This document shows, piece after piece, positions 48,662 through 50,652 of a stretch of 64,000 bases of DNA (the stretch's first letter is position 1; each line of letters begins with the position of its first letter). A program made the translations under genes and the position numbers. Under the pieces are notes generated by a model. It searched no databases. It saw only the letters and a program-made list of their open reading frames with translations, and was not told the DNA's origin. Origin of the DNA: Nodosilinea sp. P-1105 (GTDB lineage: Bacteria; Cyanobacteriota; Cyanobacteriia; Phormidesmidales; Phormidesmidaceae); contig NZ_SMDQ01000008.1 of the NCBI RefSeq assembly GCF_012911975.1, forward strand, positions 62,001 through 126,000, written 5' to 3'.

Positions 48662-49918
48662 CTAGGGAGCCACCCCAAACCATTTGCGATAGATCTGAGC
48701 ATAGGTGTCATCTTCTCGCAGGGCGAGAATAGCTAGGTTGACCGGAGTACGGTAAGGGCTGCCCTCGGGCATGGCGATCGCATAGAATTTTTCCAAAAAT
48801 GGCGTACCCACTACCTCAAACCTGACCTCGGGCTCAAAGGTCGCAAAGTGCAGCAAGATCGGTCGCGGGGCAATAATAGCGTCCACCTCCTGATCCGCCA
48901 GGGCTTGGTAGGCTTGCTCGGGCTGGTCAAACTTAATCACCCGGCGAAGGTTGTGCCCCTCCAGATACTCCACCACCGTATCGTCGGCCACCAGGGCCAC
49001 AGGGCGATTTTGCAGATCCTCCAGACCATGAATACCGCCCCGCAGCTCTTGCAGGGTCATCTCGGCGGTGAGCCCCGCCGTGAAATAGGTCAGGTAAACA
49101 ATCCCGACAAACACCCAAAATAGAGCCACCAGCCTGCCCACCGGGGCATCGGGCATTTCTTCCGCCTGCCCTACCAGGGCCAGGACCGTCCACCACAACG
49201 CCTCAAAAATCCCTGGGAAGTAGGCAGTATGCTCAATCACACTGTTCTGGCTTTTGCGCTCAAAGTACCAGACCACATGGGCGGGTATCACCATCAGTAA
49301 CGCCACCACAGCCGATAACCGCAGCAAATTGGGCCTAGTGATGCGCTGCAAAATCTCTTGCTCAGCCGAGCGGCGTTGCTGAGAGGGCTCTGGCACCATA
49401 ATTTGCAGGCCCGCTGCCAAAATCGGGTGAGAAAAGTCGAACTCCCGCTCATACTGGCTGGTAATGGGGATGGCCGCCACCGCCAAATCGGCTTCGCCCG
49501 TCCGCAGCGCCGCCAGCACGTCGTGCACTTTGGTATGGGTAGTGATAGCGACCGGGGTTTGCTCCCAGTGAAGATGCTCAGCCACCGCCCGACCGATATC
49601 TACGCTAAAACCCACCAACTCTCCATCTTGCTCAAAGGCGTCGGGGCGCATCAGGTGCGTGGCAATGCGCAGCGGAGGTGGGGCAGCGGATTCTTCAGAC
49701 ATAGCACCGGGTAAGTCTAATTCTGGTTGAGGATGGGCTGGAGCGATCGCCAGCAGAAGTACACAAACTACCCCCGTCACCACCCCAACCATTAACCCCG
49801 ACCTGGATCGCAATCTGCCCCAACGCCGCCGCTTCTGTCGATGAGTAAAACGCCTAAAAGTAAGCCATAGCTGACGCTTCACAACTGATCCAGGAAACCG
49901 ATTAAGTGGATTCTGCAT
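48662..49918 (-). CDS. Glutamate-receptor-like ion channel with substrate-binding domain (GluR0 type)
   Basis: 418 residues from the ATG at 49918 (a GTG at 49972 overlaps a strong AGGAGG and would add 18 residues). A basic leader and anchor segment (about 44-64) precede a type 3 solute-binding domain split by a channel insert: first lobe (PPLRIATHLMRPDAFE, GFSVDIGRAVAEHLHW, AVAAIPITSQYEREFDFSHPI), then a TM helix (LSAVVALLMVIPAHVVWYF), the pore loop (FEALWWTVLALVG), a TM helix (LVALFWVFVGIVYLTYFTAGL) with a TAxLTA-like gating motif, then the second lobe. The usual potassium filter TVGYGD is replaced by LALVGQAEEMPD. Likely a ligand-gated channel with altered ion choice. Confidence 0.82.
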   Translation of the reverse strand: MQNPLNRFPGSVVKRQLWLTFRRFTHRQKRRRWGRLRSRSGLMVGVVTGVVCVLLLAIAPAHPQPELDLPGAMSEESAAPPPLRIATHLMRPDAFEQDGELVGFSVDIGRAVAEHLHWEQTPVAITTHTKVHDVLAALRTGEADLAVAAIPITSQYEREFDFSHPILAAGLQIMVPEPSQQRRSAEQEILQRITRPNLLRLSAVVALLMVIPAHVVWYFERKSQNSVIEHTAYFPGIFEALWWTVLALVGQAEEMPDAPVGRLVALFWVFVGIVYLTYFTAGLTAEMTLQELRGGIHGLEDLQNRPVALVADDTVVEYLEGHNLRRVIKFDQPEQAYQALADQEVDAIIAPRPILLHFATFEPEVRFEVVGTPFLEKFYAIAMPEGSPYRTPVNLAILALREDDTYAQIYRKWFGVAP

Positions 49919-50097
49919 CGCATATAGATCACGAGTGGCACACCATTGGAGATGTAACCCACTATTATGCACCTCCTAGAACAGGAGCTTAACTTTAATT
50001 TAACGTGAGAAGCTTGCCAGACAAGCTGTGTCTTCTACCCACCCATCGCTATCTTCGGCTTTAACCGTGACGGCTCACACCTAGCTTAGAGCAAAGA

Positions 50098-50652
50098 CTA
50101 CCCTTCACCATCAGCGTCAGATCGGGCATCGCCACCTAATCTTGGCGGATTAGGCGGATTGAGGTAATCTCTTTTACTTTTATTACTGCTATTACTGCGC
50201 ACATAGAGAATTAGCGCGATCGAAGCAATGACCAGGCTAATGCCAGCCCCGAGATTAAACACATCTGCAGCACTCGTCAACTCTAATACGCTACTGGCAA
50301 AATTAATCACCAGCAATACCATTACCACACTGATCAAGGTGACCTTGAGATCCTCAAATTCCTCGATGGCAAACCAGCGAGGCAACCGTAGGGATGAACT
50401 GATAAATAAGTGATACAGCCCGATCGCAGTAATGTACAAGACCACGCCTAAAAACAAAAGGTCTAGAACTTCAATAGCTTCTAGGGCGACTTTTTTTGAG
50501 GCTTCTGTGGTAAACTCTGCTGCCAAAAACATACTACCAACATTTCTGACAGTGACAATGGCCCCAAAAACCAAAATAGCGCCTGAGCTTACCAAAGCTG
50601 AAGCAACCGCCAAACTAATTAGATGGCGAGCATTCAATAGCAAACGTTCCAT
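50098..50652 (-). CDS. UPF0114/YqhA-family membrane protein
   Basis: 184 residues with three or four membrane segments (ISLAVASALVSSGAILVFGAIV, LLFLGVVLYITAIGLYHLF, VTLISVVMVLLVINFASSVL, LGAGISLVIASIALILYV). The pattern and the SLRLPRWFAIEEFEDLK loop match the YqhA/UPF0114 group, whose role is unknown. The ATG at 50652 follows GGAAGGA. A charged, Pro/Gly-rich tail (about 158-184) extends beyond the usual end. Monocistronic. Confidence 0.8.
   Translation of the reverse strand: MERLLLNARHLISLAVASALVSSGAILVFGAIVTVRNVGSMFLAAEFTTEASKKVALEAIEVLDLLFLGVVLYITAIGLYHLFISSSLRLPRWFAIEEFEDLKVTLISVVMVLLVINFASSVLELTSAADVFNLGAGISLVIASIALILYVRSNSSNKSKRDYLNPPNPPRLGGDARSDADGEG

Follow-up and report, generated by a model that had tools for sequence, protein, structure and literature searches.

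GluR0 of Synechocystis PCC 6803, a Group 1 receptor discussed for its channel activity, is K+-selective, which leaves open how a K+ filter gave way to the non-selective filter of animal receptors. Passages of one source (PMC13099474) describe its pore as oriented opposite to that of KcsA and report GluR0 in cell-volume regulation under high K+. Prokaryotic receptors without the TVGYG filter are already known as well: Ger et al. 2010 (PMC2950845) assigned 10 of the 22 receptors that they compared to a 'Group 2', in which the P regions were unrecognised. These receptors, from cyanobacteria and proteobacteria, resemble the protein described here in topology and in having no K+ filter. The same authors describe two residues as conserved throughout both groups, 1 and 2: an Arg in the S1 half of the ligand-binding domain (LBD) for the alpha-carboxylate of the ligand and an Asp in the S2 half for its alpha-amino group.

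Our protein is encoded in a 64,000-nucleotide stretch of DNA from Nodosilinea sp. P-1105, which we call the window and on whose minus strand (-) all of its features given below lie. The longest possible reading frame starts at a GTG at 49972 (48662-49972, 436 aa), which is residue 1 of the numbering used here. The gene itself (48662..49918, 418 aa) probably starts at the ATG at 49918, residue 19, because the frame above it is not open in the closest relative (L010, 81% identical), which has in-frame stops upstream of that position. From the N terminus, the protein consists of a hydrophobic segment that is a probable Sec signal or anchor (residues 56-82, 49727..49807; Kyte-Doolittle 19-residue peak 2.68), the S1 half of the LBD (residues about 99-200, 49373..49678; Pfam SBP_bac_3 and alignment with structure 2pyy), an M1 transmembrane helix (residues 214-238, 49259..49333; AlphaFold and hydropathy), a P-loop, an M3-equivalent helix (residues 277-311, 49040..49144; AlphaFold and clade profile) and the S2 half (residues about 313-436, 48665..49036; Pfam and 2pyy alignment). 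In Pfam, SBP_bac_3 scores 77.6 bits (cut-off 26.4) over residues 103-433, with the pore interrupting it, Lig_chan matches residues 222-323 (54.6 bits, cut-off 30.8) and Lig_chan-Glu_bd stays below its cut-off (25.5 vs 30), while NCBIfam gave only models far under theirs. An AMPA-type amino-terminal domain and M4 are absent: the frame stops after S2 with no further Pfam domain, and hydropathy shows no hydrophobic segment beyond residue 303. Two glutamate-binding-domain halves thus flank a two-transmembrane pore, the topology given in passages of PMC2950845, and by its predicted layout and descent the protein is a prokaryotic ionotropic glutamate receptor (iGluR) homologue, as a GluR0-like split LBD had suggested in the original prediction made from the sequence of the window.

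The pore consists of a 16-residue helix (residues 251-266, 49175..49222) and the filter loop VGQAEEMPDA (residues 267-276, 49145..49174), which replaces VGYGD in the alignment. TVGYG is absent from residues 260-280, which read WWTVLALVGQAEEMPDAPVGR, and YFTAGLTAEMT lies in the helix that comes next, its YFTAGLTA carrying the TAxLTA gating motif; both features had been anticipated correctly. What had been overstated is the departure from known prokaryotic forms: because Group 2 was described in 2010, as passages of PMC2950845 show, that headline is not new. What the same prediction missed is that the ligand pocket has neither the S1 Arg nor the S2 Asp, a loss more unusual than that of TVGYG.

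An AlphaFold model of the single chain (18-row alignment as input, 418-residue numbering converted) had a mean pLDDT of 79.4, with only moderate confidence in the membrane part (pLDDT blocks 64-83). Between the two LBD halves, the model places a helix, a short helix, a loop and a helix, the short helix and loop being the pore helix and filter loop given above. At 16 residues, the predicted pore helix is too short to span the membrane, and its hydropathy (19-residue Kyte-Doolittle maximum 1.35) lies below that of the membrane helices (2.19 and 2.07). The model thus has the P-loop between transmembrane helices expected of a homologue, and it was the lack of such a re-entrant segment that, according to the original prediction, would have pointed to a transporter component or sensor. 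All 50 Foldseek matches listed were chains of AMPA receptors, the best with E 4.4e-24 over 370 columns (rmsd 8.0 and a TM-score of 0.47 to the query). The superpositions are loose throughout, with TM-scores of 0.43-0.56 to the query and rmsd values of 5.7-9.4. With VIA-align, the first 13 rows were binding proteins or isolated binding domains, and 9rn4_B, with its pore included, aligned over 321 residues (Z 24.4, rmsd 6.3).

Of 388 genomes of the class in which relatives were sought, 105 had matches at E ≤ 1e-15; the loci compared do not include all of the weaker matches. Five loci (L006, L009, L028, L047 and L056) were dropped before a first alignment. The alignment used for the counts below has 66 rows, 37 of them without GYG and 29 with it. 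Another 13 near-duplicate or partial rows (L021, L029, L040, L044, L048, L050, L052, L057, L063, L065, L068, L076 and L078) were dropped before the tree, which was built without the filter columns and does not include L079, L081-L087 (copies), L098, L099 or L100. Thirty-six of the 37 non-GYG rows form one clade (support 100/99) spanning Cyanobacteria and Proteobacteria, and the nine proteobacterial rows (L089-L097) are a single group within it (100/100). The remaining row, L053, represents a separate loss of GYG, as it lies outside the clade and has the longer loop. Counted from the conserved Trp to the conserved Arg, the loop measures 20 residues in each of the 29 GYG rows but 18 in 35 of the 36 clade rows, the other one, L096, having 19. 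All 36 clade rows have Gln269, and position 271 is Asp or Glu in 34 of the 37 non-GYG rows. Since a loop of this kind is conserved in 36 related rows and the window gene is under purifying selection (see below), the unusual loop is not a matter of chance. By its topology without a K+ filter the window protein falls into Group 2, and we take four of the listed Group 2 accessions to be from Nostoc/Anabaena. Plant GLRs may also show a link by loop length.

The original prediction had proposed aligning the pore with GluR0 and AMPA receptors, and profiles of the pore alone ranked different channels first for the clade and for its sister rows. For a profile of 21 clade rows, the best 60 of 385 PDB matches were all named glutamate receptors, mostly of the AMPA type (best E 3e-10), in a database that is very rich in AMPA entries and with weaker K+-channel matches possible beyond these 60. 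For a control profile of 13 TVGYG sister rows (best E 2e-14), the best 60 of 536 matches were K+ channels or K+-channel constructs except for one, which is listed simply as Lmo2059 protein. In the HMMER alignment, the Gln of the clade profile falls on the second Gln in the QQGCD of AMPA receptors, the acid of the profile falls on the Asp of that motif, and the M3-equivalent stretch aligns with AMPA-receptor SSYTANLAAFLTV. The Pfam K+-channel model Ion_trans_2 (cut-off 22.5 bits) had no match to the window protein at 0.001; it scored 38.2 and 53.5 bits in the GYG proteins L007 and L043 and fell just under the cut-off in the clade members L016 (21.0 bits) and L095 (21.3 bits), in which a trace of K+-channel similarity persists. 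By best match, then, the clade pore is AMPA-like and without a K+ filter.

Because the loop, with VGQAEE in place of the TVGYG of Group 1 GluR0, is two residues shorter and aligns best with AMPA receptors, we predict a non-K+-selective cation channel and consider it fairly likely that the filter does not select K+. The altered ion selectivity put forward in the original prediction is a reasonable expectation. Acidic residues at 271 and 272 suggest that the predicted channel is possibly permeable to Ca2+. We know of no electrical recording from any member of the non-GYG pore clade. Selectivity is not safely read from sequence, as is shown by a rotifer receptor whose pore has a TXVGYG motif: passages of PMC3483616 report it to be Na+-permeable, while passages of PMC11479355 call it K+-selective.

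In the ligand pocket, Tyr174 (49451..49453) aligns with the S1 Arg and Pro369 (48866..48868) with the S2 Asp, whose roles are taken from passages of PMC2950845; the two residues described there as totally conserved in Group 2 are thus both missing from the window protein. Because an amino-acid receptor would have this pair, we file the protein as a homologue and not as a glutamate receptor proper. Of the 66 rows, 45 have the S2 Asp and 62 the S1 Arg, which is replaced by Tyr in the window protein and L010, by Leu in L035 and by Lys in L075. The window protein belongs to a nine-row subclade (100/100) with Pro at the S2 site in eight rows and Ser in one; seven rows keep the S1 Arg, and the window protein and L010 have neither residue. 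In S1, Asp111 (49640..49642) is shared by eight of the nine rows, the ninth having a gap in a broken frame. The other cyanobacterial clade rows have the S2 Asp in 18 of 18 cases and Phe at position 111 in 17 of 18. With L028, a partial row that reads APAP at the S2 site, the subclade is represented here by ten genomes of different species, including that of the window.

The pocket varies elsewhere too. Eight of the nine proteobacterial rows have Gly or Ala at the S2 site, a loss separate from that of the subclade; these eight (L090-L097, from Paraburkholderia, Pararobbsia, Dyella, Rhodospirillales and Acetobacteraceae) keep the S1 Arg. Four GYG rows deviate at the S2 Asp, although in L069 the residue is maybe shifted by one column and not lost. 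A third kind of change is seen in L035:1501-2658 (-), which has a short filter, stands alone on a long branch and combines Leu at the S1 Arg with a retained S2 Asp. As a control, we looked at ordinary solute-binding proteins from the window's genome, in which the Arg and an acid are retained in all four rows obtained (L001, L003, L004 and L005) from five loci tried, L002 giving no row in phmmer; L008 was left out. Given the loss of the alpha-carboxylate Arg and the alpha-amino Asp and the gain of Asp111, it is probable that a free alpha-amino acid, bound in the standard manner, is not the ligand, while Asp111, or Arg176 two residues past the lost Arg, might rescue amino-acid binding.

The reading towards which we lean is a cation channel that is not K+-selective and responds to something other than an alpha-amino acid bound canonically. 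A periplasmic clamshell of S1 and S2, fused around an inverted two-helix pore, would assemble as a tetramer into a ligand-gated channel. By homology with iGluRs, the ligand would shut the clamshell, pull on M3 and so open the tetrameric cation pore; the filter Gln-Ala-Glu-Glu-Met-Pro would pass cations without selecting for K+, and the ligand that drives closure would be no free alpha-amino acid in the usual pose. A channel with the same kind of pore could instead still be gated by glutamate or a related amino acid, held in a rearranged pocket in which Asp111 replaces the S2 Asp. The S1 Arg kept in most of the subclade, the rise of Asp111 in the very subclade that lost the S2 Asp and an LBD like amino-acid-binding proteins in both sequence and fold fit such gating; we nevertheless regard it as unlikely, since the window protein and L010 are without both Arg and Asp and since position 111 is ligand-facing by our own assumption.

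Selection and gene context bear on two further alternatives. Compared with L081, a copy of the gene of L010, dN/dS over residues 99-436 is 0.15 (S1 0.22, pore 0.09, S2 0.13), the other comparisons being largely saturated at silent sites. The window gene is under purifying selection, and this low ratio indicates that the changed pocket is maintained. A degenerating GluR0 copy, that is, a pseudogene drifting in pore and pocket, might be suggested by a scattered gene (matches at E ≤ 1e-50 in 3 of the 26 genomes of the genus) and by the second, intact iGluR homologue of the same genome (L007:1447-2646 (-)), which has the K+ filter TTVGYGD. The dN/dS of 0.15 largely refutes this, the frame is intact, and the changes in pore and pocket are both shared with another species; we rejected the pseudogene reading, which is now hardly credible. 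In this paralogue, the S1 Arg is retained and Thr stands in for the S2 Asp; with its filter, K+ flux could be served elsewhere. Distinctly improbable, though less so, is a non-conducting, membrane-anchored solute sensor or transporter accessory built on an iGluR scaffold. It would account for the alteration of both the filter and the pocket signatures, and of 25 loci, several with only about 1.5 kb of flank, L010/L081 (a single gene, from the same genus) alone retain the neighbours of the window gene: a UPF0114 membrane protein (50098-50652 (-), upstream of the channel gene), an amidohydrolase and a HAD protein. Against it, the pore is the slowest-evolving part relative to L081, Gln269 is kept by every clade row in Cyanobacteria and Proteobacteria alike, a pore loop is predicted by AlphaFold and Pfam finds no ABC permease domain in the window protein or four neighbouring genes (E ≤ 0.001). 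From the same comparison of neighbours, within its limited flanks, a conserved operon or transporter partner was rejected, and the gene context gives no clue to the ligand.

Among known systems, the best PDB sequence match is the LBD of NpGluR0 from Nostoc punctiforme, solved with L-glutamate (2pyy; E 7.7e-41), which keeps the S1 Arg and S2 Asp where the window protein has Tyr and Pro. Six genomes with 97-100% identity to the S2 of 2pyy all have the pore TLATQADEMPK, which places the crystallised NpGluR0 with the non-GYG pore type, as read from these six near-identical genomes and not from N. punctiforme's own gene by name. One type of clade member would therefore already have a glutamate-bound LBD crystal structure. 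At residue 268, which aligns with the AMPA Q/R position, the six have Thr and the window protein Gly. GluR0 of Synechocystis shares the S1-M1-P-M3-S2 layout but has a K+ filter, and a related osmotic or ionic role for the window protein is only a guess. A different architecture is seen in L043:318-2738 (+), L042, L044 and L046 (731-807 aa, four open frames) and in L056, which is broken into two frames: these five homologues carry an N-terminal OpuAC domain (glycine-betaine-binding, PF04069; E 9e-47 to 2.6e-44). The four intact ones all have TVGYGD and could be betaine-sensing K+ channels, in which two stacked periplasmic binding domains reproduce the eukaryotic ATD+LBD plan with another binding-protein family; the best matches of our literature search included no title on them.

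Open-licence literature yielded no earlier report, in titles, abstract openings and passages, of a clade-wide short filter with an AMPA-first match or of the double pocket loss, and no paper, in titles and abstract openings, on the pore or pocket of the window's subclade. The non-GYG clade offers natural bacterial proteins beyond the K+-filter step, with the TVGYG sister group as a control, and the subclade offers pocket remodelling outside animals, with ligand switching testable in a small bacterial protein. AMPA receptors (GluA1-4), ranked best among the matches listed for both the pore-only profile and the whole model, share with the window protein a Gln and an acid in the filter and a TA motif in M3; the window protein differs in having no amino-terminal domain, no M4 and a filter loop one residue shorter in the HMMER alignment. 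More tentatively, the window protein may be a bacterial counterpart of insect ionotropic receptors (IRs), with an AMPA-like, non-K+ pore and an amino-acid pocket dismantled stepwise under purifying selection, so that a chemically different ligand is sensed; the S2 Asp would have gone first, in the whole subclade, and the S1 Arg later, in the window's lineage. The comparison is one of how the proteins would work: IRs are a protostome animal family, and we do not propose a common origin of the pocket loss. If this reading is true, ligand switching arose independently in bacteria.
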